Below, piece after piece: positions 5,742-45,606 of a stretch of 47,149 nucleotides of DNA; the first letter of the stretch is position 1; each line of letters opens with the position of its first letter. This DNA is from Acidimicrobiia bacterium. Lineage in GTDB: Bacteria > Actinomycetota > Acidimicrobiia > IMCC26256 > PALSA-555. The notes beneath the pieces were generated by a model, which saw only the letters and a program-made list of their open reading frames with translations, did no database searches and had not been told where the DNA came from. The stretch covers positions 1 to 47,149 of the forward strand of contig DASZJD010000026.1 of assembly GCA_035948415.1 (NCBI GenBank). The letters run 5' to 3'. A program made the position numbers and the translations under genes.

Positions 5742-6338
5742 ATGAACGCGCCGCATCCCCCTGCATTGGGACCGCTCACGCCACTGATCGGCACCTGGGA
5801 AGGGGATCGTGGCTACGACGACGCGTACGTGTACGCAGTCGGTCGCGAGCAGTGCGCCCAATTTCGAGAACACAGCACCTTCAGACCGGCCGGGCCAGCC
5901 CACAATGGAGCCCAAGCCCTGTATCGACTGGACTACACAACCACCGCGTGGCGCATCGGGGAAGACGATCCGTTCCACACGGAGATTGGCTACTGGTTCT
6001 GGGACGCCGAACACAGCCTCGTCATGCGAGGGCTCGTTACGCCGCGAGGCATCGTCGCCCTGGCCGGGGGCTCGGCAAGTCCTGGAGACAAGGTCCTGAC
6101 GGTCGCCGCGGAGGCCGGGCGCGAGGGGTTCGGGATCCTGTCGAATCCCTACCTGACCCCCACTGCCCAGACCACCGCCTTTCGGATGACAATCGACCTC
6201 TCGACGCCAGACGAGTTCTCCTACGACCAACAGACCTACATGCTCCAACCCCGAATTGAGGGTCCGTACTGTCACCGTGACCGCAACACGCTCAACCGGT
6301 ACAGGACTGATCACGAAAACTCAAAAGTCAAATTTTGA
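5742..6338 (+). CDS. Nitrobindin-like heme-binding beta-barrel protein
   Basis: A 198-aa protein with LGPLTPLIGTWEGD (8-21), the opening of the nitrobindin/DUF1794 (fatty-acid-binding-like) barrel, and a WFWDAEHSLVMRG strand region. Family members are 10-stranded barrels that bind heme or small hydrophobic ligands. The usual ligand His near the C-terminus may be the one in YCHRDRNTLNRY, but the flanks differ from canonical nitrobindin. The GTWxGxG glycine pattern is altered to GTWEGDRG. No Shine-Dalgarno is visible. TACCGT at 5729-5734 sits seven bases before the ATG and is compatible with a leaderless transcript. Confidence 0.6.
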   Translation: MNAPHPPALGPLTPLIGTWEGDRGYDDAYVYAVGREQCAQFREHSTFRPAGPAHNGAQALYRLDYTTTAWRIGEDDPFHTEIGYWFWDAEHSLVMRGLVTPRGIVALAGGSASPGDKVLTVAAEAGREGFGILSNPYLTPTAQTTAFRMTIDLSTPDEFSYDQQTYMLQPRIEGPYCHRDRNTLNRYRTDHENSKVKF

Positions 6339-6587
6339 AACCGCCCGTGCGCGACCCGACCACGCACCGACGATCGAGCACTGGTCCCCAGGGATCGTCC
6401 GGCGCCAGACTGGCAAGTGGCTTTGTGATCATCTCGCCACCCACTCCGAGTGATCGCGAACGGGACGACCGCATTACAGGTGGCCGACGATCGTTCGGCA
6501 GCCTGATGACCATCGCACTGCAAGGGGTGATCCTCGCTTCGACCCAGACCACACCCCGCTCCTTCAGCACAAGGGGAGGCTGATGCC

Positions 6588-7418
6588 ATGACAACAGACG
6601 CTCTGTCTGCAGACGGACGAGCACGAGGACTCGCAGACGGCAACCAGATGCCTATCCCGGGCCTCGGCGTCTGGCAGGTACCCGATGGGCCCGAGTGTGT
6701 CAACGCGGTGCGCTGGGCGCTCGAACTCGGGTATCGCCACATCGACACCGCTCAGGCCTACGGCAACGAGGAGAGCGTTGGAAAGGGACTGCGTGAGAGC
6801 GGAGTCCCGCGGGACGAGGTGTTCGTCACCACGAAGTTCTATCCAGAGCACCGGGACCCAGCTGCCGAGGCCGAGCGCAGCCTCAAGCGCCTCGGTGTCG
6901 ACCGAGTCGACCTGTACATCATTCACTGGCCCCAGGGCGGGCCCGTCTGGGCGTGGCCAGGAATGGAGCGGGCTCTCAACCTTGGTTTGACCCGCTCGAT
7001 CGGCGTATCCAACTTCAGCGTCAGCGAGCTCAACGAGTTGATGGCGGCGGCGCATGTCGCGCCAGCTGTCAATCAGGTGCAGTTCAGTCCGTTCAAGTAC
7101 CGCCGCGAGCTCCTTGAGTCCTGCCAGCAGCGCGGCATCGTGCTCGAGGCCTACAGCCCGCTCGGTACAGGCCAAAACCTGTCCGATGCGACCGTCAACC
7201 GGATTGCAAAGCGCGTCGGGCACACGCCGGCACAGGTGCTGCTGCGCTGGTGCGTGCAGCACAGCCTCCCCGTAATCACCAAGTCGACGCACCGCGAACG
7301 CATCGCAGAAAACCTCCAGATCTTCGACTTCACCTTGTCAGAGGAGGACATGACGCAACTCGACGCACTGGACGAGACCGATGGAACCGGCCAAGCCCTC
7401 GAGGACAATTGGTGGTGA
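6588..7418 (+). CDS. Aldo/keto reductase, diketogulonate-reductase type
   Basis: A 276-aa NADPH-dependent carbonyl reductase with the full AKR tetrad: Asp53 and Tyr58 in HIDTAQAYGNE, Lys83 in VTTKFYP, and His113 in IIHWP. GVSNFSVSEL and NQVQFSPF follow as in AKR5-type enzymes. The C-terminal KSTHRERIAENLQIFDF binds the NADPH 2'-phosphate. A strong GGGGAGG ribosome site precedes ATG 6588. It lies about 100 bases before the cyclic-nucleotide/flavoprotein fusion on the same strand and may be co-transcribed with it. The substrate is not predictable. Confidence 0.88.
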   Translation: MTTDALSADGRARGLADGNQMPIPGLGVWQVPDGPECVNAVRWALELGYRHIDTAQAYGNEESVGKGLRESGVPRDEVFVTTKFYPEHRDPAAEAERSLKRLGVDRVDLYIIHWPQGGPVWAWPGMERALNLGLTRSIGVSNFSVSELNELMAAAHVAPAVNQVQFSPFKYRRELLESCQQRGIVLEAYSPLGTGQNLSDATVNRIAKRVGHTPAQVLLRWCVQHSLPVITKSTHRERIAENLQIFDFTLSEEDMTQLDALDETDGTGQALEDNWW

Positions 7419-7520
7419 AGCCAGGGCAGTGCCGTCGCCACTTCGCGGGCCGCTCCGCGCCGGCGAGGTGGGTCGGCACCGACCACGGTCTGAGACTCCT
7501 ACAGAGATGGGTAGTTTGCG

Positions 7521-9224
7521 ATGGTGACCCAGCCCTCGGCCGGTGACCCCTCGACCCTGAACAAGGAATTTGCGGCCGAGTTACCCGATCCGGCCGCACC
7601 CACGCTGGATGCTGCAGCTCTCGCCGAGCTGGCACCCGTCGGGGACGAGCGTGTCGTCGAGGTGGGCGACGTTCTGTTCCGCGCTGGGGACGAGCCCAGC
7701 AACTTCTTTGTGGTGCTCGAAGGCGCTGTCGACATCATCCGTCCGGATCTCGAGGGCGACACGCTGCTCACCACCCATGTGGCGGGCCGATTTCTCGGCG
7801 AGCTGAGCATGGTGACGGGCCAACGCCTGTATCTGACAGCCCGCGTCAGCCAGCGCGGCCGGGTGCTGGCTGTACCTCTCGACGCGTTCCGACGAGTCAT
7901 GAGCACCCGGCCGGATCTCGCCGACACGATCTTTTCGGCGTTCGTTGCCCGACGGGAGGTTTTGCGCACGGGCGAAGGCGCGCGTGCGGTGCGGATCATC
8001 GGGTCCCGCTACTCGCGCGAGGCCACGGCATTGCGCGCGTTTGCAGCCAGGAGTCGTCTCCCTCACACGTGGATCGACATCGAGGGTGCGGACGACGTCG
8101 AGGTCCTGCTCGCGGACATGGGGTTCCGTCGGCAGGACACGCCAGTGGTCATCACGTCGACGGGGGTGCTGCGTCACCCGTCACCCGGCGAGTTCGCCCA
8201 GCATCTCGGATTGACGTTCCAGCCCGAGCCGGGCTACCTGTTCGACCTCGTCGTCGTCGGAAGCGGTCCGGCCGGCCTGGCGGCCGCGGTCTACGGAGCC
8301 TCCGAGGGGCTCAAGACCGTGTCGCTCGACGCCGATTCCGTAGGCGGGCAGGCTGGCTCCAGCTCGCGCATCGAGAACTATGTCGGGTTCCCGAACGGAA
8401 TCTCTGGCGAAGACCTCGCGGCCCGGGCCGCGGTGCAGGCACAGCGGCTCGGTGCCCGCTTGAACGCCCCGTGCGAGGTCGCCGGTCTGCGAGTGGAGGA
8501 AGGGTTCCTGGTCGTAGCGCTCGTCGACGGCAGCGAGATCCCGACTCGCACCGTGATCATCGCGGCCGGCGCCCGTTACCAGCGCCTCGCGGTCGACGAT
8601 CTGGAGCGTTTCGAAGGTGCTGGGGTGTACTACGCGGCCACCGATCTCGAGGCTCGAATTTGCAACGGCCGGCCCGTCATCGTGGTTGGGGGCGGAAACT
8701 CCGCCGGGCAGGCCGCGATCTACCTCGCCCAACAAGGGAGCCACGTATCAATCGTCATACGCGGCAAGGACCTCACGCACAGCATGTCGCACTACCTCAT
8801 CGAGCGGGTCGAGGCCGACCCGCGCATCGAGCTCGTCATCGACACACAGGTCCGTGCACTCGTTGGCGACACGCATCTTGGCCACGTCACCCTCGAGTAC
8901 ACGCCCACAGGCGAGCGTCGCGCCGTCGCTTGCTCGGGACTCTTCTGCTTCATCGGTGCCGACCCCGCAACCGCGTGGCTGGCCGGTGCGTTGGAGCTTG
9001 ACTCGAAGGGCTTCGTTCTCACCGATCGCTCCTTGCCGGATACGAGCACGGATGGCCCGAGGTTCGCGACGCGTGACCCGTTCCCGTTCGAGACGTCCGT
9101 GCCGGGCGTCTTCGCCGTTGGTGATGTGCGAAGCGGCTCACTGAAGCGGGTCGCCGCTGCCGTCGGGGAAGGGGCGGGCGCCGTGCGCTCCGTGATCGAG
9201 CACGTCGCCACGATCACCAATTGA
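7521..9224 (+). CDS. Cyclic-nucleotide-domain / thioredoxin-reductase-like flavoprotein fusion lacking redox CxxC
   Basis: A 567-aa protein in three parts. Residues about 35-150 are a Crp-like cyclic-nucleotide-binding fold (FRAGDEPSNFFVVLEG, GELSMVTG). Residues about 156-232 resemble a glutaredoxin/thioredoxin fold with the TPVV cis-proline turn, but the CxxC position reads SRYS. Residues about 241-560 are a thioredoxin-reductase-like flavoprotein: FAD loop VGSGPAGLAAA, GGQAGSSSRIENYVGFP, NAD(P) loop GGGNSAGQAA (390-399), and C-terminal FAVGDVRSGSLKRVA. The segment that normally carries the redox-active CxxC before the NAD(P) loop reads VYYAATDLEARI and has no cysteine pair. Fusions of this kind occur in other bacteria; with both thiol centres missing, it is more likely a regulated NAD(P)H oxidase or reductase than a thioredoxin reductase. 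Confidence 0.82.
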   Translation: MVTQPSAGDPSTLNKEFAAELPDPAAPTLDAAALAELAPVGDERVVEVGDVLFRAGDEPSNFFVVLEGAVDIIRPDLEGDTLLTTHVAGRFLGELSMVTGQRLYLTARVSQRGRVLAVPLDAFRRVMSTRPDLADTIFSAFVARREVLRTGEGARAVRIIGSRYSREATALRAFAARSRLPHTWIDIEGADDVEVLLADMGFRRQDTPVVITSTGVLRHPSPGEFAQHLGLTFQPEPGYLFDLVVVGSGPAGLAAAVYGASEGLKTVSLDADSVGGQAGSSSRIENYVGFPNGISGEDLAARAAVQAQRLGARLNAPCEVAGLRVEEGFLVVALVDGSEIPTRTVIIAAGARYQRLAVDDLERFEGAGVYYAATDLEARICNGRPVIVVGGGNSAGQAAIYLAQQGSHVSIVIRGKDLTHSMSHYLIERVEADPRIELVIDTQVRALVGDTHLGHVTLEYTPTGERRAVACSGLFCFIGADPATAWLAGALELDSKGFVLTDRSLPDTSTDGPRFATRDPFPFETSVPGVFAVGDVRSGSLKRVAAAVGEGAGAVRSVIEHVATITN

Positions 9225-9537
9225 GACCCGTTGCCTGAGCTCCGGGGCGCCCCGGCCCGAACGGTTCAGAGAAGTCGCTCCCCATCGGGTCGCTCGAAAA
9301 ATAAGGACGGGCTGTTCAACGCCCAAGCTCAACCGCCACCGGGCCATGAGGGGCCTGCCTCTTCGCCCGACGCCTGACAGGTCCGCCGGAAGCCGGGTCG
9401 CCAGCTGTTGCTCGCCGCGAGCCTTTACCTGCCCTTCAACCGTCGGCTTTGCCGCGGGGATGCCTCCGTCCGCATGGCACCCGTGAAGGGGCGAGGTTCG
9501 CTCTCAGCCTTCTGCCAGGTCTGGTCGAGGGTCTCGA
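9225..9537. other. Intergenic region between convergent genes
   Basis: 313 bases between the flavoprotein fusion and the oppositely oriented GGDEF-EAL gene, with no coding frame I would support. Two small symmetric elements are visible: the perfect palindrome CCGGGGCGCCCCGG (9242-9255), 18 bases after the flavoprotein stop, and a 5-bp hairpin GCTCG-CCG-CGAGC (9410-9422) followed by CTTT. Either could help terminate the plus-strand transcript. Neither is a strong terminator. Confidence 0.45.
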
Positions 9538-11850
9538 TCATCCATCGTGGCGACGAGCGGCGGGAGCACGCCGGGTCCGGTGCTGGTCCTGTGAGAAGTT
9601 GCGACGCGCGGTGTCGGTTGGCCAGTGCCGAAGGTCGTGACGCGGCTGGTCGCCGAGCATGCCGGCGGGTTCTGGGATGCCGAAGAGGTAACCCTGTGCG
9701 TACTCGCAGCCCAGGGTCTGGAGCTCCTGAAGCTGGGCTCGGGTTTGGACTCCTTCGGCAATGGCGGCGATGCCCAGCGAGTGGGCGAGACCGACGATGG
9801 CACCGACGATGCTGGTGTCTTCGGCCTGGTCGCCGAGTCCGTCGACGAAGGTGTGGTCGACTTTGAGCGCCTCGACCGGGAAGCGTTTGAGATAGGCGAG
9901 CGACGAGTAGCCGGTGCCGAAGTCGTCGATGGCGAGGTGCACACCGAGGCGACGGAGGCGTTCGAGAACGAGGATGGCCTGATCGGCGTCGTGCATGAGG
10001 GCGCTCTCGGTGAGCTCGAGCCACACGCTGTTGGGGTCGATGCTGGTGCGCTGGAGAATGTCGGCCACTTCGGCGGTGAGTGACGGCTCGATGAGCTGGC
10101 GGGGAGCCAGATTGATGCTGACCGAGAGTCGGTGCCTTCCTGGTTGGTGTCCGTGCCAGCGGGCCGCTTGGCGGCAGGCATGTTCGAACACCAGGGCGCC
10201 GATCGGGACGATGAGTCCGTTGTCTTCGGCTCGGGGGATGAAATCGTCGGGCTGGATGAGCCCGAGAGTCGGGTGTCGCCAGCGGACCAGCGCTTCGAAG
10301 CCGATGACTCGCCGTTCGACCAGGTCAACGATCGGCTGATAGTGGAGCTCGAACTCCTGGCGGTCCACGGCACGGTGGAGGTCGGCATCCATCTGGAGCG
10401 CCTCGACGGCTCGCCGGTGCCCGACGTCGTCGAAGAGCTCGATGCGGGCTCGTCCATTGTCCTTGGCTCGGTACATCGCGGTGTCGGCGTCTCGTACGAG
10501 CTCGTCGGGTGCTTCGTCGGGCCGCTTGGCAATGGCGACGCCGAGACTGGCCGTGACGAAGATCTCGCGGTGCGCCACCAGCACCGGTGCCCGCACCGCG
10601 TCCTGGAGCCGCTCGGCGATCTCGAGCGCGGCATCGGCGTCCGGGATGTCCGGGCACAAGATGACGAACTCGTCGCCGCCGAAGCGGGCCACGGTGTCGC
10701 CGGGCCGCATCGCGGCTCGCAGCCGCTGCGCCAGCACGCTGATCAGCTGATCGCCGGCCGGATGACCGAGGCTGTCATTGACCAGTTTGAAGCGATCGAG
10801 ATCCAAGAAGATCACGCCGACGCTGGCGCCGGGCTGCTGACGACTCAGAGCAAGTCTCAGGCTGTCTAAGAACGCGACCCGATTCGGGAGGCCGGTGAGC
10901 CCGTCGTGGGTGGCGGCGTTGCTGAGCTGTTCGGCGATCGCCTTGCGTTCGCTGATGTCGCGCAGATTGGCGACGATTCCCTCAACCCCAGGTCGGTTGG
11001 TCATGTCGGTCACGCTGGCGTCGAACCATCGCCAACTCCCGTCCCGATGATGGAGCCGCAGCTCGATTCGGGCCGCGACGCCATCGGCGTGTTGGACGGC
11101 CAGAAAGGACTCCGCCGCCGCCTCCACGTCATCGGGGTGGGCAAGGTCCAACGCCAACGATCCGATCGCCTCGCCGGGTGAGTATCCGAGCAGTACTTCA
11201 AAGGCTGGGCTCGCGTACCGGACCCGTCCGTCCTCGACCACGAGGATGATGTCCGCGGCGTGCTGCACCAACCCTCGGAACCGCTCCTCTCGGCGCTCCA
11301 ACGCCTCCTCGGCGCGCTCCTTGTCCGCGGTCGCCCATCCCAACAACAGGATGGTCAGGACGACGCCGAGCCCGGCGAACAGCGCCAGCCCGTGCACCAG
11401 GGGCGTCGAGATCAACGAGGGCGCCAACCCGGCGACGATCGCCAGCTCCCCCAACACCAGGTCGATCACACTCCACACCACTGCCGGAGCCACCGCCCGC
11501 GAGCCCGACGCCCGCACGTTGTTGGCCGCCCCGAATACGAGCCCGATCGACAAGGTCGGTCCCCACCCGACCGCATACATGACGGCCGAGATCACACTCA
11601 GCTCGACGCCCACCCGGACGAAGAGCCGCCACCCGACCTGCGCGTCACCCCAGAGCGCGTACACGAGCCCCGAGACCAGCTGGGCGCCCACCAACAGGCC
11701 CAGCAACGCCCACAGCGACACCGGCGCGACGATCCCGAGCCGGCTGCCCAGCCAGAACGCCGGCGCCACCACCACCACACCCAGCAGACTCGGCCCACCC
11801 ATGCGAGTCCGCAGGCGACCGGCAAAGGTGTCAGCCCTGGGTCGGCTCAT
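9538..11850 (-). CDS. Membrane PAS-GGDEF-EAL protein (c-di-GMP synthase/phosphodiesterase)
   Basis: A 770-aa protein. Residues about 22-172 hold five or six hydrophobic segments, followed by a short coiled linker. A PAS domain (about 190-305) carries the usual ISERKAIAEQL exit helix. The GGDEF domain has intact GGDEF (391-395), THDGLTGLPNR, and an RPGD inhibitory I-site (382-385) at the correct distance. The EAL domain has EAL (519-521) in GFEALVRWRHP and intact DDFGTGYSS (642-650). Both catalytic domains therefore look competent, and the I-site predicts product inhibition. The membrane region is not a MASE or MHYT type I recognise, but it is related to that of the protein at 32689-34977. The final 50 or so residues are basic and disordered. 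Confidence 0.9.
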   Translation of the reverse strand: MSRPRADTFAGRLRTRMGGPSLLGVVVVAPAFWLGSRLGIVAPVSLWALLGLLVGAQLVSGLVYALWGDAQVGWRLFVRVGVELSVISAVMYAVGWGPTLSIGLVFGAANNVRASGSRAVAPAVVWSVIDLVLGELAIVAGLAPSLISTPLVHGLALFAGLGVVLTILLLGWATADKERAEEALERREERFRGLVQHAADIILVVEDGRVRYASPAFEVLLGYSPGEAIGSLALDLAHPDDVEAAAESFLAVQHADGVAARIELRLHHRDGSWRWFDASVTDMTNRPGVEGIVANLRDISERKAIAEQLSNAATHDGLTGLPNRVAFLDSLRLALSRQQPGASVGVIFLDLDRFKLVNDSLGHPAGDQLISVLAQRLRAAMRPGDTVARFGGDEFVILCPDIPDADAALEIAERLQDAVRAPVLVAHREIFVTASLGVAIAKRPDEAPDELVRDADTAMYRAKDNGRARIELFDDVGHRRAVEALQMDADLHRAVDRQEFELHYQPIVDLVERRVIGFEALVRWRHPTLGLIQPDDFIPRAEDNGLIVPIGALVFEHACRQAARWHGHQPGRHRLSVSINLAPRQLIEPSLTAEVADILQRTSIDPNSVWLELTESALMHDADQAILVLERLRRLGVHLAIDDFGTGYSSLAYLKRFPVEALKVDHTFVDGLGDQAEDTSIVGAIVGLAHSLGIAAIAEGVQTRAQLQELQTLGCEYAQGYLFGIPEPAGMLGDQPRHDLRHWPTDTARRNFSQDQHRTRRAPAARRHDG

Positions 11851-30878: not shown

Positions 30879-31699
30879 GGCTCGGCCCTCGCCTCGCTCA
30901 TCGGCGGGCCCGGCGGCTCGTCGGGCTGCCCGAGGTAGGCCTCGATGACCCGTGGGTCGGCCTGCACCTCCGGCGGCGCCCCGGTGGCGATCGGCTGCCC
31001 GAAGTCGAGGGCCATCACCCGGTCGGCGATGTCCATGACGAGATGCATGTCGTGCTCCACCAGGATCATCGAGAGCTCGAACTCGGCCCGGACCTGGAGG
31101 ATGTAGCGGGCCATGTCCTCGGTCTCCTCGAGGTTCATGCCGGCGACGGGCTCGTCGAGCAGGAGCAGCTTCGGCTCCATCGCCAGGGCCCGCCCGAGCT
31201 CGACCCGCTTCTGGATGCCGTACGGGAGCATGCCGACGGGCTGGTAGCGGTAGGGGCCGAGCTCGATGAGCTCGATGACCTCCTCGACCCGCTCGCGGTT
31301 GGCGACCTCCTCTCGCTTGGCTCGCCCCAGCCACACCGCGCCGGCGAGGAAGCCTGTCTTCATGAGGTGATGGCGGCCGAGCATCAGGTTGTCGATCACG
31401 TTCAGGTTCACGAACAGGCCGAGGTTCTGGAACGTGCGGGCGATGCCCATCGCGGCGGTGGTCGCCGGCCGCTTCCCGATGATCTCCTCCCCCTCGAAGC
31501 GGATGTGCCCGGACTGCGGCCGGTACACCCCGTTGAGGCAGTTGAAGATCGACGTCTTGCCGGCGCCGTTCGGCCCGATGATCGCGAAGAGCTCGTTCGG
31601 TCGAACCTCGAAGGTCACGTCCTGCAGCGCGCTGACGCCGCCGAACCGGAGGGTGACGGCCTCGACGTCGAGGAGGGCGGGTCCGCCGACTGCGCTCAT
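30875..31699 (-). CDS. livG: Branched-chain-type ABC transporter ATPase (LivG)
   Basis: A 274-aa ABC ATPase. Walker A is GPNGAGKTS, the Q-loop region is [17 protein letters not shown], the signature is [10 protein letters not shown] (the LivG-type variant of LSGGQ), Walker B is [12 protein letters not shown], and the H-loop is ILVEHDM. The C-terminal tail [18 protein letters not shown] is typical of LivG. ATG 31699 overlaps the livF stop by four bases (ATGA), and its own stop overlaps the ligase start. Confidence 0.92.
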
Positions 31700-32583
31700 G
31701 CGCTCCAGCGCTTGCGCCGCCGGTAGGTCTTGAGGTCGCGGAACGAGCGGCCACCGGTCTCGCCGACGCCGAGGTAGAACTCCTGGATGTCGGCGTCGGC
31801 AAGCAGCGCCGGACCCGGCCCGTCCTTGGCGATGAGGCCGTTCTCGAGCACGTAGCCGTGGTTGGCGATCGAGAGCGCCATCGTGGCGTTCTGCTCGACG
31901 AGCAGCACGTCGGTGCCGGACTGCTTGATCTCGACGATCAGCTGCCGGATCTGCTGGACGATGAGCGGGGCGAGCCCGAGCGAGGGCTCGTCGAGCACGA
32001 GCAGCCGCGGCGCCGCCATCAGGGCCCGGCCCATGGCCAGCATCTGCTGCTCACCGCCCGACAGGTAGCCGGCCGTGGAGCGGAGCCGGTCGCGGAGGAG
32101 CGGGAAGAGCTGGAGGACGTGCTCGTAGGTGTCCTTGACCGACGTTCGGTCCCCGCCCCGCGGGCGCCCGCCGCGGCCGAGCGCGGCGCCGATGACGCTC
32201 GTCACCGCGGCGACGCCGCCACCGAGTCGCGTGTACGCCCCGGCCCGGAGGTTCTCGTCGACGGTGAGCTCGGCGAAGATGCGGCGGCCCTCCATCACCT
32301 GGGCCATGCCGCGCCGGACGATGGCGGCGGCGTCGAGGCCGTCGATGCGCTCGCCCTCGAGCTCGACGCTGCCCTTCGTGATGGAGCCGCGGTGGAACCG
32401 CAGCAGCCCCGACACGGCCCGGAGCAGGGTGGTCTTGCCGGCCCCGTTGGCGCCGAGCAGCGCCACGATCGACCCCGGTCGCACCTCGAGGCTCACGCCC
32501 CGCAGCACGTGGATGGCGGAGCCGTAGACGACCTCGACGTTGCGGACGGCGAGCGTCGGCGTGCTCGCACCCCCCGATGCCAC
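31696..32583 (-). CDS. livF: Branched-chain-type ABC transporter ATPase (LivF)
   Basis: A 295-aa ABC ATPase and first gene of the operon. Walker A is GANGAGKTT, the family-specific [22 protein letters not shown] follows, the signature is LSGGEQQML, Walker B is [13 protein letters not shown], and the switch segment is VLLVEQNA. A roughly 25-residue extra loop (about 130-160, GRGGRPRGG) lies before the helical subdomain. GTG 32583 gives the right N-terminus; the frame stays open far upstream over the divergent GGDEF-EAL gene but that is noise. A -10-like TAGTGT lies eight bases before the GTG, suggesting a leaderless mRNA. Confidence 0.9.
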
Positions 32584-32590
32584 GGGCCCG

Positions 32591-32596
32591 ACACTA
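32591..32596 (-). promoter_or_regulatory. Putative -10 hexamer for a leaderless livF transcript
   Basis: On the minus strand TAGTGT matches TANNNT and ends eight bases before the livF GTG. This spacing would start transcription at or next to the start codon. There is no good -35 match and no ribosome site, which fits leaderless expression as is common in actinobacteria. Confidence 0.35.
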
Positions 32597-32688
32597 ATGA
32601 TCGGCCCCCGCCTCGGACAGGGCCGACCGCCAGGATCGGCCGGCGGGCCGCCGTCAAGCCCGGCCTCGGAGGCGCCGATACCCGGGGG

Positions 32689-34977
32689 ATGGCGATCGGG
32701 GGGTCGAGCAGAGGGATCGGGCGTCGGGTGGCCGACGCCCTCGCGCCGGGCTTTGCGTCGACCTGGGTCGCGAGCGGGTTCACCGCCGCCGCCTTCATCG
32801 TCCTCGACAGCTTCGGGGTGCTCGGCAACCTGCCGGTCGAGGTCCTGCTGGGCCTGCTCGCCGCCGCCGCGATCGTCGCCGAGGCGTCGCGGCGGCTCGC
32901 CGGCACGGACCCGAGCACGCCCGCGCTCTGGGCCACCGTCGGCGTCCAGATCCTCGCGGTCAGCGTCGTGATCTACGCCATCGGCTGGGGTGGCGCCCTG
33001 GGCATCGGCTACGTGTTCGTGATCGCCCGACAGATCGAGGACTACGGCCCCCGGGTGTGGCGACCGGCCGTGGTGTGGACGGCCGCGGGGATGACCGGCG
33101 GCCAGCTCGCGATCGCGACCGGCGGGCTCGGCAGCTACATCAGCCAGCCCGAGGTGCACGGCTTGACGCTCCTCATGGGCCTCGGCGTCGCCTTCATCGC
33201 CGAGATGCTGGCGGGCAAGGTCGACGAGCAGCGCCGCAGCGCCGCCGAGCTGCGGGCCAGCGAGGCGGACTTCCGCCAGCTGTTCGCCGCCAACCCGCAG
33301 CCCATGTGGGTCTTCGACGCCGAGACGCTGGCCTTCCTGGAGGTGAACGACGCCGCCGTCCGGCACTACGGGTACAGCCGCGAGGAGTTCCTGGCCCGCC
33401 GCGTCGTCGACATCCGACCGGTCTCGGAGGTCCCCTCGTTCCTCGCCCACCTCGAGGGCACGCACGACCGCGACATCGTGCAGGGCGAGTGGCGGCACGT
33501 CCTGAAGGACGGACGCGTGATCGACGTCGAGGTTCGCAGCCACACGTTCGTGTTCGAGTCGCGAGCGGCGGTCCTCGTCGCGGTGCAGGACGTCACCGAG
33601 CGCAACTCGCTGCAAGCCGAGCTCCAGCACCAGGCCTTCCACGACTCGCTCACGGGCCTCGCCAACCGGGCCCTGTTCAGCGACCGGGTCGAGCACGCCA
33701 TCCAGCGGGGAGCTCGGGATTCGAGCACCGCCGGCGTGCTGCTCCTCGACCTCGACGGGTTCAAGACCGTGAACGACAGCCTCGGCCACACCGCCGGCGA
33801 CGAGCTGCTGGTCGCCGTCGCCCAGCGGCTGCGCGCCGTGCTGCGGCCGAGCGACACCGCCGCCCGGCTCGGCGGCGACGAGTTCGCGGTCCTGCTCGAG
33901 GACCTCACCGGGGGCGAGGAGGCGTGCGAGGTCGCCGAGCGGGTCCTCGAGGCGGTCGACCGGCCGTTCGCGCTGGCGGGGACCGAGGTCGTCATCCACG
34001 CCAGCGTCGGCATCGCCGTCGTCGGTCACCTGGGCGCCGACCCGGAGGCGCTGCTGCGCAACGCCGACGCCGCCATGTACAGCGCCAAGAACGGGGGGAA
34101 GGGCTGCTACCGGCTGTTCGAGCCCGCGATGCACTCCGCTGCGGTGGCCCGCCTCCAGCTCGAGGGCGACCTGCGCCAGGCCGTCGAGGCTCGCCAGTTC
34201 GTCCTCCACTACCAGCCGGTCGTGTCGCTCACGGCCGGGCGCGTCGTGGCCCTCGAAGCCCTGATCCGCTGGCAGCACCCGACCCGTGGGCTCATCCCGC
34301 CCGCCGACTTCATCCCGATCGCCGAGGAGAACGGGCTCATCGTCGACATCGGGCGGTGGGTCCTCGCCGCCGCGTGCCGGCAGGCCCGCATCTGGCAGGA
34401 GGCGCACCCGCACCTGAGCCTGACCATCGCGGTGAACCTCTCGCCCCGCCAGCTCGCCGACCCGGGCCTCGTCGGTGACGTTCGCCGGGCCCTCGCCGAG
34501 AGCTGCCTCGCCCCCGAGACGCTCACCCTCGAGATCACCGAGAGCGTGCTCGTCGACAACGTCGGCGGCGCCATCGCGCGCCTCGGCGAGCTCAAGGACA
34601 CCGGGGTCCGTCTCGCCATCGACGACTTTGGCATCGGCTACTCGTCGCTCGGCGCCCTCGGGAGCCTCCCGGTCGACACGCTGAAGATCGACAAGGCCTT
34701 CATCGACGGGGTGACGACCGGCGTCGAGGCCGACGCCCTGGTCCAGGCGATCCTGCGGCTGGCCCGCACCTTCCACCTCGTCACCATCGCCGAGGGTGTC
34801 GAGCGCCCGGACCAGCTGCGCCGGCTCGAGGAGCTCGGCTGCGACCAGATCCAGGGGTTCTGCTTCTCGAGGCCGATCCCCGGCGACCGGGTGGAGGCCC
34901 TCCTGCGCCGCGTCCCCGTCGCCACGCCGGCCGGCGTCGCTGCGCTCGCCCCGCAGCCGGTCCTCACCGACCAGTAG
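32689..34977 (+). CDS. Membrane PAS-GGDEF-EAL protein, paralogous to the one at 9538
   Basis: A 762-aa protein. Five or six hydrophobic segments (about 25-172) include YAIGWG, RPAVVW and [12 protein letters not shown], aligning with the membrane part of the other GGDEF-EAL protein. A PAS domain (about 192-305) follows. The GGDEF domain has intact GGDEF (395-399), [11 protein letters not shown], and an RPSD I-site (386-389). The EAL domain has EAL (523-525) and, at 645-653, DDFGIGYSS, in which the usual Thr of DDFGTGYSS is Ile. That residue lies in the dimerisation/metal loop, so phosphodiesterase activity may be altered. ATG 32689 is 105 bases from the divergent livF, and the two may share a control region. 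Confidence 0.9.
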
Positions 34978-35038
34978 CGCCCGCGCTCCCCCACGCCCGC
35001 CTCCGGGACCACCGGGCGCGGCCCCGTACGCTCGGCCC

Positions 35039-36411
35039 GTGAAGGTCCGCGCCGCGCCGCTGCTCGACCCGACGGGACCCGGGCCCGGCCGCGACGTCGA
35101 CGAGCTGCTCGCCGCCGCCGGCCTGCCGCCGCCACCCGGGTCCCACCCCGTCGCGGCGCCGACGGGAGAGCTGACCGCGTGGGCCGCGTCCGGCGGGATG
35201 GCCCTCACCGGCTGGCCCGACCAAGCCCCCCTGCCGCCGCCGGCGCCGGTGCTCGGCCGGCTCGGCGCCGTCACGGCGGCGATCGCCGCGGTCACGAGCC
35301 GGCTCGGCGATCGCGTCGACGTCGACCTGCCGGTCACCCTGTTCGGCCGGGCCGCGCTGCTCGCGGGCCGGCGAGCCGGCACCACGTCGGTCGGCGGCTC
35401 GTGTCAGCTCCTGCCCGCGGCCGACGGCTGGCTGGCCCTGAACCTGCCCCGGTGGGAGGACGCCGAGGCCGTGCCGGCGCTCGTCGGCCGGGCGGTCACC
35501 GACCCGTGGGGGCCGCTCGGCGGGTTCGCGCGCTCGCGTCCGGCGGCCGACGCGGCGGCGCGGGCCCAGGAGCTCGGCATCCCCGCGGCCGCGCTCGGCG
35601 AAGCTGGCGACGCGCGGGTCCGCGCCCGCCGCCTCGGTGCCCCCGCCGCGGTCCGGAGCCGCCCGCTCGTGGTCGACCTGTCGGCCCTGTGGGCCGGCCC
35701 GGTCGTCGCGCACGTGCTCGGCCGCGCCGGCGCGCGCGTGGTCAAGGTGGAGACGCCCGAGCGGCCGGACGGGGCCCGACGCGGGCCGCGGGCGTTCTTC
35801 GACTGGCTCCACGCCGGCCACGAGAGCGCGGCCTGGGACTTCACGACCCCGGACGGCTCGGCGCGGCTCCGAGCCCTGCTGCGTCGCGCCGACGTCGTCA
35901 TCGAGGCGTCGCGACCGCGCGCCTTGCGCCAGCTGGGCCTCGACGCCGAGGAGCTCGTCGCCGAGCGGCCCGGCCGGACGTGGCTCTCGATCACCGCCTA
36001 CGGGCGAGGCGGCCCGTGGTCGAACCGGGTCGGCTTCGGTGACGACGTCGCCGCGGCGGCGGGGCTCGTCGCCCGCGACCCGGCCGGCGTCCCGGTCTTC
36101 TGCGGCGACGCCATCGCCGACCCCGTGACCGGCCTCGTCGCGGCCCTCGCCACCCTGACGGCCGTGGCCGCGGGCGGCGGCTACCTCCTCGACGTCTCGC
36201 TCGCCGCCGCCACCGCCTTCGTCGGGCGGCCGGCCGCGCCACTGGTGCCGGAGCTGCTCCCGCTCGGTCCAGGCCGGTGGGCGGTCCGCGACGGTGCCGG
36301 CGAACAGGAGGTGCTCGCCCCGCGCCCGCCGACGCCCCTCCGCGAGGCCGAGCCCCTCGGGGCTTCGACCGCGGTCGTGCTCGGCGAGCTCGGCGACGCC
36401 GACGCGCGGCG

Positions 36412-37831: not shown

Positions 37832-38509
37832 CTACGGGACGCTGAAGCGGTAGCCCATGCCGGCCTCGGTGTGGAAGTACCGGGGCTGGGACGGCTCGGG
37901 CTCGAGCTTGCGCCGGACGTGGGCCATGAAGACGCGCAGGTAGTGGGTCTCCCGCTCGTAGCCCGGCCCCCACACCTCGCGGAGGAGCTGACGGTGCGAG
38001 AGCAGCTTGCCGGGGTTGCGGACGAGGAGCTCGACGAGGCCCCACTCGGTCGGCGTGAGCCGGACCTCGTCGCTGCCGCGGACGACGCGCTTCGTCGCCA
38101 GGTCGATCGTGAAGTCCGGCGTCTCGATGACGGCATCTTCCTCCGCCGGCGCGGCACGGCGCAGCGCCGCCCGCAGCCGAGCCAGGAACTCGTCCATGCC
38201 GAAGGGCTTCGTGACGTAGTCGTCGGCGCCGGCGTCGAGGGCTGCGACCTTGTCCGGCTCGGTGTCGCGTGCCGACAGCACGACGATCGGGACCCGGCTC
38301 CACCCGCGGAGGCCGGCGATGACGTCGACGCCGCGGATGTCCGGCAGCCCGAGGTCGAGCACGACCACGTCGGGGTGGTGGCGCGCGGCGAGATCGAGGG
38401 CCTGCTCGCCGTCGGCGGCGAGGTCGACGTCGTAGCCGCGGACCCGCAGGTTGATCCCGAGGGTGCGTCGGATCTCGGGCTCGTCGTCGACGACGAGGAC
38501 GCGGCTCAC
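37832..38509 (-). CDS. kdpE: Response regulator KdpE
   Basis: A 225-aa OmpR-family regulator. The receiver domain has Asp8/Asp9, phosphoacceptor Asp52 in VVVLDLGLPD and Lys101 in YVTKPFG. The C-terminal winged helix (about 130-225) has the recognition region HYLRVFMAHVRRKLE. GTG 38509 overlaps the kdpD stop by four bases (GTGA), so sensor and regulator are translated together. It is expected to bind upstream of the operon, where CTTAGCG repeats are seen at 45910-45979. Confidence 0.92.
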   Translation of the reverse strand: MSRVLVVDDEPEIRRTLGINLRVRGYDVDLAADGEQALDLAARHHPDVVVLDLGLPDIRGVDVIAGLRGWSRVPIVVLSARDTEPDKVAALDAGADDYVTKPFGMDEFLARLRAALRRAAPAEEDAVIETPDFTIDLATKRVVRGSDEVRLTPTEWGLVELLVRNPGKLLSHRQLLREVWGPGYERETHYLRVFMAHVRRKLEPEPSQPRYFHTEAGMGYRFSVP

Positions 38510-41010
38510 GTCTCCGCCCGCGGCACCGACATGACCATGGTGAGGCCGCCGCCGGGGGTGTCCTCGACCGAGAGGTCGCCGCCCATCGCCTCGACGAAGC
38601 CGCGCGCGACGGCGAGGCCGAGACCCACGCCGGTGGAGTTCGAGCGGTCGCCGAGCCGCTGGAAGGGCCGGAAGATCGTCTCGCGCTGCTCGGCGGTGAC
38701 GCCGGGCCCGGCGTCGATGATCCGGAGGTCGACGTTGGTCCCGAAGCAGCCGGCCTCCACCCGCACCCGCTGGTCGGGCGGCGACCACTGCACGGCGTTC
38801 TCCAGCACGTTGGCGATGGCGCGCTCGAGCAGGCTGGCGTCGGCGTGGACGCGCGGCAGCGTCTCGGGCAGGTCGAGGGCGACCCGCCTGGCGCCGTCGG
38901 GGAGCTCGGCGACGACCTGGGGCACCACCTCCTCGAGCCCCACGTCGCGCAGCACGGGCTCGAGGGTGCCGGCCTGGAGCCGACCCATGTCGAGCAGGTT
39001 GTTGATGAGGGACGTCAGGCGGTCGGCGCCCCGGTCGACGGCCTCGAGCAGGTCGCGCTGCGCGTCCGGCGGCCAGTCGACGTCCTGCTGAAGCAGGCTC
39101 GTCACCGACGCTTTGATCGACGCCAGCGGGGTGCGCAGGTCGTGCGACACCGCCGCGAGGAGGGCGGTGCGCAGCTGGTTGGCCTCGGCGAGCCCGGTGG
39201 CCAGGGCGGCCTCGGCTCGGAGCTGCCGGGATTCGAGGGCCAGCGACAGCTGGGCGGTGAACGCCTCGAGGAGCCCGAGGTCCTCGGGGTCGACGTCCGG
39301 CCCGACCAGCACCAGCTGCTCGTCGTCGTCGAGGGGCACGCTGAGGTCGGCGTCCTCGGGACGCTCAGGGACGGGCTCCCCGACCGAGGTCTCCACCCGC
39401 CAGTGCTCGCCCTCCCGGCGCAGCACCGCCGCCGCGGTGATGCCGAAGGTGTCGCGCAGCCGGGTCATGAGCACGGCGAGGGGGTCGTCGGCGCCGATGA
39501 CGGAGCCGCTGAGACGGGCCAAGGTCCGCGCCTCGGCCTTGGCGTGCGCGGCCTCGGCGGCGCGCCGAGCGGTCAGGGCGACGAAGCCGCTCACGGTGAG
39601 CCCGACCGCGAGCAGCGCGATCAAGGCGATGACGTTGGCCGAGCTGCCGATCGCGAGCTGGTGGACGGGCGAGATGAAGAAGTAGTCGGCCAGCAAGAAG
39701 GCGGCGACGCTCGTGGCGACGCCGGGCCGCAGGCCGCCGACGCCGGCCGCGGCGACGACGAGGAGGACGTAGACGAGCAGCGCCGCGGGCAGCGTGAACG
39801 TGCCCCGCGCCGACGTCATGATCAGCGTCGACGCCGGCAGGCTGACCGCGGCGAGCGCCCACGCCGCCAGCTCCCGGCGTCGGGAGGGGCCACGGGGCGG
39901 CCGGGGGACGATGACCGGCGGCAGGCCCGGCTCGGGGGCGTCGCCCGAGATCACGTGGACGTCGATCGTGTCCGTCTGGCGGATGACCCGGGCGACGACC
40001 GAGCCTCGGACCAGCTCGCTCCAGCGGGAGCGTCGGGAGGCTCCGATCACGAGCTGGGTGGCGTGCTCGGCCTTCGCGAACTCGACGAGGGCTCGCCCGA
40101 CGTCGTCGCCGGCGACCTCGTGGTAGGTGCCGCCGAGGGCCTCGAGGAGCCCCCGGTGCTCGGCGAGGCGGACGTCGTCCCGCCGCTCGGCGAGCCCGCT
40201 GGTGTTCCGGATGTGGACGCCGACGAGGTCGCCGCGGGTTCGCTGGGCCATGCGGGCGGCCCGGCGGATCAAGACGTCGCCGTGCAGAGCGCCGGTGAGC
40301 GCGACCACGACCCGCTCGCGCGTCTCCCACGAGGCGTCGATCCCGTGGTCCTCCATGTACTGCTGGAGGGACTCGTCGACCCGGTCCGCGACCCACAGGA
40401 GGGCCAGCTCGCGCAGGGCGGCGAGGTTCCCGGGGCGGAAGTAGTTGGCGAGCGCGGCGTCGACCCGCTCGGAGGGATAGATGTTGCCGTGCGCCATCCG
40501 CCGTCGGAGCGCCTCCGGCGTCATATCGACGAGCTCGACCTGCTCGGCGGCGCGCACCTTGGCGTCGGGGATCGTCTCGTGCTGCTTGACCCCGGTGATG
40601 CGCTCGACGAGGTCGTTCACCGACTCCAGGTGCTGGATGTTCAGCGTCGAGATCACGTCGATTCCGGCGTCGAGGATCTCGTCGACGTCCTTCCATCGCT
40701 TCTCGTTGCGCGAGCCGGGGACGTTGGTGTGCGCGAGCTCGTCCACGAGGACCTGCGCCGGCTTGCGGGCGATGATGGCGTCGACGTCCATCTCCTCGAA
40801 CTCGCGGTCGCGGTAATGGACGGCCTGCCGCGGGACGACCTCGAGGTCCCCGACCTGGGCGGCCGTGTTGGCGCGGCCGTGGGTCTCGACGAACCCCACG
40901 ACGACGTCGGTGCCGCGGCTGTGGCGGCGGCGACCCTCGTTGAGCATGGCGTAGGTCTTGCCGACGCCGGGCGCGGCGCCCAGGTAGATGCGGAGTCGGC
41001 CGCGGGCCAT
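38506..41010 (-). CDS. kdpD: Potassium/osmosensor histidine kinase KdpD
   Basis: An 834-aa sensor kinase. The N-terminal KdpD domain has Walker A GAAPGVGKTY and VLVDELAHTNVPGSRN. A USP-like domain follows (about 248-365, with VVVALTG and LVIGASRRSRW). Four membrane helices (about 380-490) precede a GAF-like region. The HisKA domain has phosphoacceptor His623 (AVSHDLRTPL), and the ATPase has ENAVQWSP, DAGPGV and GVGLGLAV. Length is close to the usual 890. Ten bases separate it from kdpC. It senses low K+ or ionic stress and phosphorylates KdpE. Confidence 0.93.
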   Translation of the reverse strand: MARGRLRIYLGAAPGVGKTYAMLNEGRRRHSRGTDVVVGFVETHGRANTAAQVGDLEVVPRQAVHYRDREFEEMDVDAIIARKPAQVLVDELAHTNVPGSRNEKRWKDVDEILDAGIDVISTLNIQHLESVNDLVERITGVKQHETIPDAKVRAAEQVELVDMTPEALRRRMAHGNIYPSERVDAALANYFRPGNLAALRELALLWVADRVDESLQQYMEDHGIDASWETRERVVVALTGALHGDVLIRRAARMAQRTRGDLVGVHIRNTSGLAERRDDVRLAEHRGLLEALGGTYHEVAGDDVGRALVEFAKAEHATQLVIGASRRSRWSELVRGSVVARVIRQTDTIDVHVISGDAPEPGLPPVIVPRPPRGPSRRRELAAWALAAVSLPASTLIMTSARGTFTLPAALLVYVLLVVAAAGVGGLRPGVATSVAAFLLADYFFISPVHQLAIGSSANVIALIALLAVGLTVSGFVALTARRAAEAAHAKAEARTLARLSGSVIGADDPLAVLMTRLRDTFGITAAAVLRREGEHWRVETSVGEPVPERPEDADLSVPLDDDEQLVLVGPDVDPEDLGLLEAFTAQLSLALESRQLRAEAALATGLAEANQLRTALLAAVSHDLRTPLASIKASVTSLLQQDVDWPPDAQRDLLEAVDRGADRLTSLINNLLDMGRLQAGTLEPVLRDVGLEEVVPQVVAELPDGARRVALDLPETLPRVHADASLLERAIANVLENAVQWSPPDQRVRVEAGCFGTNVDLRIIDAGPGVTAEQRETIFRPFQRLGDRSNSTGVGLGLAVARGFVEAMGGDLSVEDTPGGGLTMVMSVPRAET

Positions 41011-41020
41011 CGCCGCGCCG

Positions 41021-41815
41021 CTACCGGCCGAGGCGGTCGAGGGCCAGGTTCAGCGACAGGACGTTCACGGTCGTCTCGCCGAGGACGCCGGCGGTGCGGC
41101 TCGACTGGTGCGCCTCCACGAGCTGCAGCACCACCGCCGCCGGGAGATGCCGGGCCGCGGCGACCCGCGGCGCCTGCAGCCGCGCGTTCGCCACCGAGAT
41201 GTCCGGATCGAGGCCCGACGCCGACGCCGTCACGGCGTCGACCGGCACCGGGGCGCCCGCGGGGAGGCGGTTGAACGCTCGGTAGGCGAGGACCCGCTCC
41301 GGGACCGTGTCCGGGTCACAGACGAAGGACCCGTCCGGGCTCCGGGCGTACCGCTGCCCCGCCGACGGCTTCGTGACCGGATGGCCCTGCGGGTCGGTGG
41401 GGACGCAGGCGGGGTCGGCCGCGGTCGCGAACGGGTTGGCGCTCGACGGGTTGCCGCGGCGGTCCACGGTGTTGAGCCGGGGGACGAAGCCGATCAGGAG
41501 CGGGTTCGTCGGACCGAGGTTCGACGCCCCGCTCAGCGTCGGGTCGTACCCAGCCGTCGTCTTCGCGGCGGCGCCCGAGGCCGCCGAGGGACGGGACTGG
41601 AAGTACTGCGGCAACGGGTTGCCTTCCGCGTCCGTGAAGCTCTGGCCGATCAGGTGGGAACCGACGACCTGGCCGCCGCGCCGGACCAGCGAGCCGTTGG
41701 CCTTGTCCCGGATCCCGACCTGCGCGATCCCGGTGACGACCAGAGGATACGCGACGCCGGTCAGGGCCGTGAACACGACCATCGCCAACAACGCAGGCAG
41801 CAGCTGTCGCCGCAT
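41021..41815 (-). CDS. kdpC: K+-transporting ATPase subunit KdpC, with large insertion
   Basis: A 264-aa assembly and stabilising subunit of the KdpFABC pump. One transmembrane helix (about 7-30) is followed by the family landmarks [45 protein letters not shown] and [16 protein letters not shown]. Most family members have about 190-200 residues. The extra length lies between about 108 and 180, a Pro/Asp-rich stretch with two Cys that could form a disulfide outside the membrane. ATG 41815 directly follows the kdpB stop codon. Confidence 0.92.
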
Positions 41816-43879
41816 CTACTTGACCCCCAAGGCCGTGATCAAGAGGTCGATGAGCTTGATGCCGATGAACGGCGCGACGACGCCGCCCAACCCGTAGATG
41901 AAGAGGTTCCGTCGCAGGAGCTGGGTCGCGGCCTTCGGCACGAACTTCACGCCGCACAGCGCCAGCGGGATGAGGGCGACGATGATGAGCGCGTTGAAGA
42001 TGACCGCCGACAGCACCGCCGAGCGTGGGGTCGCCAGACTCATGACGTTGAGGTCGTTGAGCACCTTGACGGTGGCGAACCCGGCGAACATGGCCGGGAT
42101 GATCGCGAAGTACTTGGCGACGTCGTTGGCGATCGAGAACGTGGTGAGCGAGCCGCGCGTGATCAGCAGCTGCTTGCCGATCTCGACGATGTCGATGAGC
42201 TTCGTGGGGTCCGAATCGAGGTCGACCATGTTGCCGGCCTCCTTGGCGGCCTGCGTGCCGGTGTTCATCGCCACGCCCACGTCGGCCTGCGCCAGCGCGG
42301 GCGCGTCGTTCGTGCCGTCGCCGGTCATCGCGACGAGCCGTCCGCCCCGCTGCTCGCGCTTGATGAGCTGCATCTTGTCCTCGGGTGTCGCCTCGGCGAG
42401 GAACTCGTCGACGCCCGCTTCCTTCGCGATGACCGCGGCCGTGCGCGGGTTGTCACCGGTGATCATCACGGTGGAGATGCCCATGCGACGCAGGTCCGCG
42501 AAGCGCTGGGAGATGCCGGGCTTCACGATGTCCTTGAGGTAGATCACGCCCAGGGCTCGCGCGTGCGCCGGCGCGCTCCCATCGCCGCTCTCGGCCACGA
42601 CGAGCGGCGTCCCGCCTTGGCCCGCGATCGAGTCGACGGTGGTGGCGACCTGCGACGGGAACGACCCGCCCTGCTCCTCGACCCAGCGTCGCACCGCGTC
42701 GGCCGCCCCCTTCCGCACCGACCGGCCCTCGAGGTCGACGCCGCTCATGCGGGTCTGGGCCGTGAAGGGCACGAGGTCCGCGCCGGTGAGCTCGCGTTCG
42801 CGCAGCCCGTAGCGCTCCTTCGCCAGCACCACGATCGAGCGTCCCTCGGGCGTCTCATCGGCGAGCGACGAGAGCTGCGCGGCGTCGGCGAGCTCGGCCT
42901 CGGCGACCCCCTCGGCGGGGAAGAAGGCGTCGGCAGCGCGGTTGCCGAAGGTGATGGTGCCGGTCTTGTCGAGGAGCAACGTCGCGCAGTCCCCGGCCGC
43001 CTCCACGGCCCGGCCGGACATCGCCAGCACGTTGCGGCGGACGAGGCGGTCCATGCCGGCGATGCCGATCGCCGAGAGCAGCCCACCGATCGTCGTGGGG
43101 ATCAGGCACACGAGCAGCGCCACCAAGATCACGATGCTCTGCTCGGCCTTCGAGTAGATCGCGAAGGGCTGCAAGGTCACGGTCGCCAGCAGGAAGATGA
43201 TGGTGAGGACGGCGAGCAGGATGTTGAGGGCGATCTCGTTCGGCGTCTTCTGGCGCTGCGATCCCTCGACGAGCGCGATCATGCGGTCGAGGAAGGTCTC
43301 GCCGGGCCGGGCCGTGATCCGGACCACGATCTGGTCCGAGAGGACGCGAGTGCCGCCGGTCACGGCCGAGCGGTCCCCACCCGATTCGCGGATGACCGGC
43401 GCCGATTCGCCGGTGATCGCCGATTCGTCGACGCTGGCGATGCCCTCGATGACCTCGCCGTCGCTGGGGATCATCTCTCCCGCCGACACGACGCACTCGT
43501 CATCGACGGTCAGCTCGGTGCTGGGGACGTCCTCGAGCGTCCCGTCGGCGCGCCGCCGGTGGGCGACGGTCTCCGAGCGTGTCCGCCGCAACGTGTCGGC
43601 CTGCGCCTTGCCCCGGCCCTCGGCGACCGCCTCGGCGAAGTTGGCGAAGAGGACGGTGAACCACAGGAACAGCGCCACCAGGCCGGCGAAGACGCTGAGG
43701 TGCGCGCTCGACGTGGGCAGGTCCCGGAAGAAGAGGACCGTGACCAGCACGCTGCCGACCCCGACGACGAACATGACCGGGTTCCGCGCCAGCGTGCGGG
43801 GGTTCAGCTTGATGAAGCTGTCCACGACGGCACGGCCGACGATCTGCCGGTCGAACAGCGAGCGGGACTCCACGGGCAT
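41816..43879 (-). CDS. kdpB: K+-transporting P-type ATPase subunit KdpB
   Basis: A 687-aa P-type ATPase that powers K+ uptake. The actuator motif is TGES at 156-159. Phosphorylation Asp304 is in LLLDKTGT. The nucleotide domain is present, and the hinge region [18 protein letters not shown] follows. About seven membrane helices are seen at the usual positions. The Ser in TGES is also the known inhibitory phosphorylation site in E. coli KdpB. ATG 43879 has a GGAG site 14 bases after the kdpA stop. Confidence 0.95.
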
Positions 43880-43893
43880 GGCGGCGGTGACTC

Positions 43894-45606
43894 CTAGACC
43901 TTCAGCGCTTCGACGAGGGGGCCGAGCGCCAGCACGGGCAGGAAGGTGAGCGCGCCGACGATCACGATCACGCCGATCACCAACACCACGAACAGCGGCG
44001 TGTGGGTCGGGAAGGTCCCCGCCGACGGCGGGACCGGCCGCTTGCGCACGAGGGAGCCGGCGAGGGCGAGGGTCGGGATGATGAGGAAGAAGCGGCCGAC
44101 CAGCATGGCGACCGCCAGCGCGGAGTTCAGGAACGAGGTGTTGGCGTTGAGGCCGGCGAAGGCCGAGCCGTTGTTGTTCGCGGCGGAGGTGAACGCGTAG
44201 ACGAGCTCGGTGAATCCGTGGGCACCTGGATTCAGGATCGAGGTGTTCTTGACCGAGTTCACGAACACCGCGATGGCGACGCCACCAAGCAGCACGAGCG
44301 GCATGGCCAGGATGTAAAGGGCGACGAGCTTCACCTCGGACGCCTGGATCTTCTTCCCGAGGTACTCGGGTGTTCGCCCGACCATGAGCCCGGCGATGAA
44401 CACCGAGAGGATCGCGAACACGAGCAGCCCGTTGAGGCCGACGCCCACCCCACCGGGGCTGACCTCGCCCAGCTTCATGTGGGCCAGCACGAGGAAGCCG
44501 CCGGTCGGCGTGTAGCTGTCGTGCATCGAGTTCACGGAGCCGTTCGAGGTGCCGGTCGCCGACGCCCCCCAGAGGGCCGACGCGCTGGGCCCGAACCGCG
44601 ACTCCTTGCCCTCCATGTTCCCGCCCGGCTGGGCCGAGGTGGCGACCTCCGTGGCTCCCCGTGCCGACAGGCGCGGGTTGCCCGAGGTCTCGGCCTGCAT
44701 CGTCCCGATCGACACGCCGAGCCAGATCACGAACATGATCGCGAAGACCGCGTAGCCCTGGCGTCGGTCCTTCACCATGCGCCCGAAGGTGAACGCCAGC
44801 GCGAAGGGGATGATGAGGATCGCGTACAGCTCGAGGAAGTCGCTCAGTTTCGTCGGGTTCGAGAACGGGTGCGCGGAGTTGACGTTGAAGAAGTCACCCC
44901 CGTTCGATCCGAGCTGCTTGATCGACTCCATGCTGGCGTTCGGCCCGCCCGGGATCCGCTGGGTCGCACCGGCGACGGTGTGCGCGGTCGTGAACCCGTG
45001 GGTGTTCTGGATGACGCCCTGGGTCACGAGCACGACCGCGAACACGAAGGAGATCGGGAGCAGCACCCGGATCGTGGTGCGGATCAGGTCGACCCAGAAG
45101 TTGCCGACTGTCCGCTGCGCCGTTCGCGACAGGCCCCGCAGCAGCGCGGCCATCACGGCCATGCCGGCGGCGGCGGACACGAACTGCTGCACGGTCAGGC
45201 CCACCATCTGGGTGAGGTGGCTCAGCGTCGATTCGCCGCCGTAGGCCTGCCAGTTCGTGTTCGTCAAGAAGCTGACCGCGGTGTTCATCGACAGCGCCGG
45301 CGCGACCGCGGCCACGTTCGTCGGGTTGAAGGGCAGGCTCGACTGCACCCGCTGGAGCACGTAGAGGATGAAGAACCCGACGACGCTGAACGCGAGCAGC
45401 GACAGCGTGTAGACGGTCCAGTGCTGCTCGCGCTCCGGGTCGATCCGACAGACCCGGTAGATGAGCCGTTCGACGGGTCGCGCCAGCCGGTCGCCCACCA
45501 TGGGGCCGCCCTCGTACACGCGGGCGATGTAGAAGCCGAGCGGCGGCGCCGTCACCAGGAGGAGCACGACGAGCGCGGCGAGCTGCCCCCACCCGGCGGC
45601 GGTCAC
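43894..45606 (-). CDS. kdpA: K+-transporting ATPase channel-like subunit KdpA
   Basis: A 570-aa membrane protein that selects K+. Four pore-loop repeats are recognisable, for example [11 protein letters not shown] (115-125), GSNGGDFFN (233-241), [10 protein letters not shown] with [11 protein letters not shown], and [13 protein letters not shown]. Ten or so transmembrane helices match the family and the length is normal. GTG 45606 overlaps the kdpF stop by one base (TAGTG). A longer in-frame ATG upstream would run through kdpF and is rejected. Confidence 0.95.

Follow-up and report, generated by a model that had tools for sequence, protein, structure and literature searches.

The gene at positions 7521..9224 of the window, by which we mean the whole stretch of 47,149 nucleotides analysed here, encodes a flavoprotein that has kept the FAD- and NAD(P)-binding motifs of a thioredoxin reductase (TrxR) and lost the redox cysteines both of that module and of the glutaredoxin-like (Grx-like) domain fused to it. 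We see about an even chance that it serves as an NAD(P)H-dependent FAD flavoprotein of a stress or redox module, delivering electrons to an external acceptor. This explanation rests on the domain architecture, the double cysteine loss, the retained nucleotide motifs, the grouping of all cysteine-free members in a single clade and their association with zf-UBP genes; cofactor loading, hydride transfer, the external acceptor and switching are what it would predict. The family already has a name at NCBI, under an activity label that its sequence does not back, and it offers a naturally occurring TrxR fold that retained the sites for hydride transfer and lost the thiol chemistry, with a cysteine-bearing sister for comparison.

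Gene and domain architecture

The open reading frame (plus strand) is complete, begins with ATG and encodes 567 amino acids; codon-scored gene calls gave no gene competing with it, and a sigma-70 promoter scan of window positions 6300-9600 returned none. A cyclic-nucleotide-binding-type (cNMP-type, CRP-like) domain spans residues 44-129 (7650..7907; PF00027, 1.1e-15), followed by a glutaredoxin-like domain without cysteine at residues ~157-235 (7989..8225) and a TrxR-like FAD/NAD(P) module at residues 241-561 (8241..9203), matched by Pfam Pyr_redox_2 at residues 241-551 (PF07992, 1.8e-34) and by fold to TrxR and AhpF. The middle domain has no Pfam match of its own; its columns can be matched one by one to those of the Glutaredoxin domain (PF00462, 4.1e-10) in cysteine-bearing Grx-TrxR fusions. 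An AlphaFold2 model built from 30 sequences (mean pLDDT 90.2, pTM 0.88) finds its longest structural match in AhpF and its core match in TrxRs; together with the Pfam matches and the glutaredoxin alignment, it supports the three folds proposed in the initial annotation. The top NCBIfam model is thioredoxin-disulfide reductase (TIGR01292), reached with 220 bits, well under the cut-off of 343.

The aldo-keto reductase gene upstream and the GGDEF-EAL gene downstream were considered as operon partners and set aside, no conserved linkage having been found. The latter, at 9538-11850, encodes a PAS-GGDEF-EAL protein and is transcribed towards the flavoprotein gene; homologues in loci L006, L008 and L082 likewise have GGDEF or EAL genes beside them. 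Two genes upstream, at 5742-6338, lies a gene for a THAP4/nitrobindin-like heme-binding beta-barrel (PF08768, 5.7e-20), and L002 and L003 have genes resembling it a few genes away from their homologue. Elsewhere in the window, a minus-strand cluster at 37832-45844, judged by eye, resembles kdpFABC with KdpD/KdpE, and very long open reading frames cover the same bases on opposite strands (31858-34977 on the plus strand, 31696-35385 on the minus strand); a simple codon score picked the plus-strand frame, which may be a shadow ORF.

Loss of both redox cysteine pairs

The window protein contains four cysteines (Cys318, 381, 471 and 476) and no CxxC anywhere. Aligned with the cysteine-bearing fusions, the canonical CATC of TrxR falls on A372-A-T-D375 (8634..8645) and the glutaredoxin CPDC, of the CPxC type, on S165-R-E-A168 (8013..8024). 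The initial annotation was therefore right that both pairs are missing and that the TrxR CxxC region is altered; in the glutaredoxin-like domain it was right about the absent cysteines and placed the site three residues off, at SRYS (162-165). Neither pair is kept in any of 75 full-length homologues of 42-69% identity, and the same losses in 75 sequences exclude chance. Column 372 of this set holds A (72) or S (3), columns 373-374 are nearly always A-T and column 375 is mainly E, P, Q or D, while position 165 is S, A, D, T or E and never Cys, leaving neither a CPxC nor a CxxS active site; a stray Cys two residues before position 165 occurs in one branch only, that of the plasmid chaperone operons described below. 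Of 142 distinct TrxR-like sequences in a broader set, 131 have no CxxC, and not one of these 131 has a Cys at the TrxR site. The other 11 belong either to canonical TrxB or to a separate Grx-TrxR class, which keeps WC-x-x-C and CATC in 8/8 genomes read and in one tandem-Grx member. In L205, a plus-strand ORF from about 1503 encodes two tandem glutaredoxin domains (both WCPDC) and a TrxR with CATC. NCBI product names for the cysteine-free family are 'cyclic nucleotide-binding domain-containing thioredoxin-disulfide reductase' or 'FAD-dependent oxidoreductase'; because its members lack the cysteines for disulfide reduction, the label 'thioredoxin-disulfide reductase' is doubtful and, judged from sequence, probably wrong.

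The nucleotide-binding loops, by comparison, are intact, as the initial annotation held: GSGPAG (residues 247-252, 8259..8276) for FAD and GGGNSAGQ (390-397, 8688..8711) for NAD(P). Residues G247, G249, G252, N393, S394, G396, Q397 and R414 are invariant in the 75 homologues, and such invariance in the FAD and NAD(P) sites despite the loss of both cysteine pairs speaks for a retained function. Arg414 (8760..8762) replaces the first Arg of the TrxR 2'-phosphate signature HRRxxxR, which has shrunk to IRG in the window protein. Just after the flavin-binding GDV segment, at the end of GDVRSGSLKR (534-543, 9120..9149), stands Arg543, where TrxR and the cysteine-bearing sister have Gln, and which might conceivably influence the flavin potential. 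That the protein is a pseudoenzyme, a scaffold whose nucleotide folds are kept for stability only, would suit the disappearance of both dithiol sites and the decay of HRRxxxR to R-G; we think it quite improbable, as few columns are better conserved than those of the FAD and NAD(P) loops and the model adopts a hydride-transfer conformation.

A redox pair might also be sought among the remaining cysteines. Cys318 (8472..8474) and Cys476 (8946..8948), placed by alignment to TrxR in the FAD domain and on the strand returning from the NAD(P) domain respectively, are present in 72/75 and 74/75 near homologues, and the initial annotation had named conserved cysteines elsewhere, forming the redox pair, as evidence that would count against it. 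Near-invariance in the close set has the outward form of such evidence. Both are confined to the near cNMP clade, however: in receiver-domain relatives position 318 is taken by other residues and position 476 by V, and the members from plasmid chaperone operons, although cNMP-type, read FVFIGA and have no Cys at 318. Variation outside the near clade means that the two residues are no required pair of the family, and an alternative disulfide between them, rejected as a hidden redox pair, is extremely improbable.

The N-terminal sensory domain

The CRP-like beta-roll is present according to both Pfam and the model, so that the cyclic-nucleotide fold of the initial annotation stands, its phosphate-binding cassette Arg aside; the description 'cyclic-nucleotide-gated' is unsupported. 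Aligned with PKA regulatory subunits, the cassette Arg corresponds to L103, within the cassette region G93-R108 (GELSMVTGQRLYLTAR; 7797..7844). That column is occupied by A, V, P, T, I, L, H or S and by Arg in 0/75 members; the positions after it read [FY]-L-[ST]-A-R, with R108 in 73/75. With no member of the 75 keeping the cassette Arg, canonical binding of cAMP or cGMP is not expected, and the domain most likely does not read either nucleotide in the usual way; another ligand is possible. The same core carries two sensory domain types, CRP-like here and a response-regulator receiver in a sister branch.

Origin and distribution

In a maximum-likelihood tree of the TrxR domain, a quick tree without bootstraps and with the CxxC columns masked, all cysteine-free members form one clade on a long stem (SH-aLRT 99), which splits into a cNMP branch (94) and a branch of receiver and other types (81). 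The cysteine-bearing Grx-TrxR fusions fall outside it, and both pairs were thus most simply lost once, before the N-terminal domains diverged. The window's genome holds a second cysteine-free Grx-TrxR copy without a sensory domain (L082, 1459-2739) and also a normal TrxB with STCATCDG (L083). Nearest orthologues are scattered across Acidimicrobiia and absent from most genomes of the same family. The family is widespread: of 296 actinobacterial genomes sampled across the phylum, 75 carry the Grx-TrxR type, which is cysteine-free in 69 of them, presence being called at E<1e-54 from a single query and part of the counted members having been read for cysteines. Plasmid records matching the family number 130, many from Rhizobium, Rhodococcus and Agrobacterium, and phage records yielded two weak fragments only. 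We found no published work on the cysteine-free family, which is weak evidence, as subscription literature lay mostly beyond the search.

Genomic partners

The most constant companion of the flavoprotein is zf-UBP, a small zinc-finger protein. In the 296-genome sample, zf-UBP is present in 55/69 genomes with the cysteine-free type against 17/227 others (Fisher p 2e-31) and in 0/6 of those with the cysteine-bearing type only; among 61 relatives the counts are 19/22 with the cysteine-free type against 4/39 (p 3e-9), the genomes in these comparisons not being phylogenetically independent. The link holds in relatives of at least 3 Mb. In many loci the zf-UBP gene adjoins the flavoprotein gene, in both orientations and in annotated operons, and in R. 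leguminosarum it lies 10 bases upstream. The two zf-UBP genes of the window's genome lie on contigs other than that of the flavoprotein, and no zf-UBP, thioredoxin (Trx), NhaA-DsbA, Rieske or molybdopterin-enzyme gene lies next to the window copy. Our search found no known role for a bacterial zf-UBP protein, and the two proteins form a pair whose roles can be tested together.

Signalling proteins accompany one branch. Receiver-type members share operons with a histidine kinase bearing a CRP-like domain and with zf-UBP (L185, L191, L192 and L194). In L190 (3774-5441) a single gene, adjoining a receiver-Grx-TrxR gene, encodes a CRP-like domain, a histidine kinase and zf-UBP together. These operons and the fusion, with the joining of one core to two different sensory domains, are what would be expected of a redox or NAD(P)H sensor, in which NAD(P)H and oxidant would set the state of the flavin, and this in turn the conformation of the receiver or CRP-like module and of the zf-UBP partner, turnover being incidental. 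Strict conservation of both nucleotide sites also fits catalysis, however, some neighbours are enzymes that require electrons, and no output interface was identified; a sensor is possible, if somewhat unlikely.

Other neighbours, grouped by clustering based on codon-scored gene calls, recur within single branches. On actinobacterial plasmids the gene order is (grpE)-dnaJ-cbpM-clpB-trxA-zfUBP-flavoprotein, where the last three share a few bases at their junctions in Rhodococcus and Nocardia and lie tightly packed in Streptomyces. This operon, which looks like a mobile stress-tolerance cassette, was seen at L234 (3143-5551), L238 (4131-6611), L239, L240 and L241, with a DUF1931 gene often next in Rhodococcus and Nocardia. 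In Microbacterium, one gene upstream of the flavoprotein, a fusion protein is encoded that joins an NhaA Na+/H+ antiporter to a DsbA-like domain whose C-x-F-C is intact (L044, 4083-5960, and ~21 similar loci). A Trx with a zinc-ribbon N-terminus is encoded next door in L182, L223 and L155, a molybdopterin oxidoreductase and an FAD/NAD reductase adjoin in four Acidimicrobiia loci (L009, L092, L093 and L096), and a Rieske oxygenase gene extends across the flavoprotein start codon in a single genome (L227). Ferredoxin was dropped as a linked partner, being seen at one locus only, and NhaA-DsbA as a general one, being of the Microbacterium type only, absent from the window's genome and not co-occurring with the flavoprotein (9/23 against 21/38 relatives, p 0.29).

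The contiguity of trxA, zf-UBP and flavoprotein in the plasmid operons, the DsbA-type domain immediately upstream in Microbacterium and the zinc-ribbon Trx next door at three loci all favour a split thioredoxin reductase, which would draw the missing dithiol from a separate protein, either from the cysteines of zf-UBP or from a Trx-fold partner that takes its electrons straight from the flavin. Yet the conserved zf-UBP cysteines match the zinc-ligand pattern of their Pfam family, and the Trx and NhaA partners are branch-specific, NhaA failing both on co-occurrence and in the window's own genome; we consider this unlikely. Decidedly unlikely, in our estimate, is its fuller form, in which the dithiol has moved out of the enzyme, the flavoprotein reduces zf-UBP (and this then thioredoxin) or a Trx-fold protein, and the whole makes up a thiol-reduction system that is divided between proteins, controlled by signals and linked to ClpB/DnaJ chaperone operons.

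Structure and a proposed route for electrons

The window model superposes on the FR conformation of L. lactis TrxR (5mh4) with a TMt of 0.91 at 2.3 A and on the FO conformation (5mjk_A) with 0.64 at 7.2 A, while a control model of the cysteine-bearing sister (8 sequences, pLDDT 83.4) gives 0.85 for FO and 0.65 for FR, a contrast between one model each from alignments of unequal depth. An FR-like, hydride-transfer arrangement in the model fits an enzyme that needs no CxxC at the flavin, and is suggestive only.

The external-acceptor reading may be put as follows. In the ancestor common to the family, a glutaredoxin-thioredoxin-reductase fusion would have given up its two dithiol sites and kept the first half-reaction, in which hydride passes from NAD(P)H to FAD in the FR-like arrangement. 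No CxxC would swing to the flavin any longer; electrons would leave to an external acceptor docking near it, much as in the TrxR-type flavodoxin/ferredoxin reductases. The N-terminal domain, CRP-like or, in the sister branch, a receiver, would act as a sensory or dimer switch that sets the timing. As the most constant companion, zf-UBP might be acceptor, adaptor or effector, with Trx-fold and metalloenzyme partners as recurrent candidates in single branches. Against an external acceptor it counts that neighbours vary between branches and that no partner adjoins the window gene; against a likeness to ferredoxin/flavodoxin-NADP+ reductase (FNR), that the window protein lacks the C-terminal loop by which an FNR characteristically covers its flavin, the last helix (544-566) closing the 567-residue chain.

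Comparison with known systems

Electron exit without a CxxC has precedent in the TrxR-like FNRs, which have no CxxC (PMC8564101), and in a B. cereus TrxR variant of FNR-like design, with cysteines changed to serine among other changes, that reduced NrdI at 3.9 per min against 3.2 for the wild type (PMC8564101). Low-Mr thioredoxin reductase (TrxB, TIGR01292) shares with the window protein the two-domain FAD/NAD(P) fold and the TrxR-type C-terminal helix and is its top match in sequence and structure; the window protein differs in having AATx for CATC, in its score (220 against 343 bits) and in its added sensory and Grx-like domains. AhpF, which gives the best fold match over the full length, and the Actinomycetota Grx-TrxR fusions (L198-L206), the nearest relatives outside the cysteine-free clade, likewise join a Trx/Grx-like N-terminal domain to TrxR, but in the fusions both domains retain their cysteines. 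TrxR-type ferredoxin/flavodoxin-NADP+ reductase (YumC/FNR2) differs in its hallmark C-terminal extension stacked over FAD (PMC8564101, PMC10526003), which the window protein, nearer to TrxR in sequence, lacks; the two have in common a TrxR fold without a CxxC, and the passage of electrons from NAD(P)H through FAD to an external acceptor, the known route of FNR (PMC8564101), is the one predicted here.
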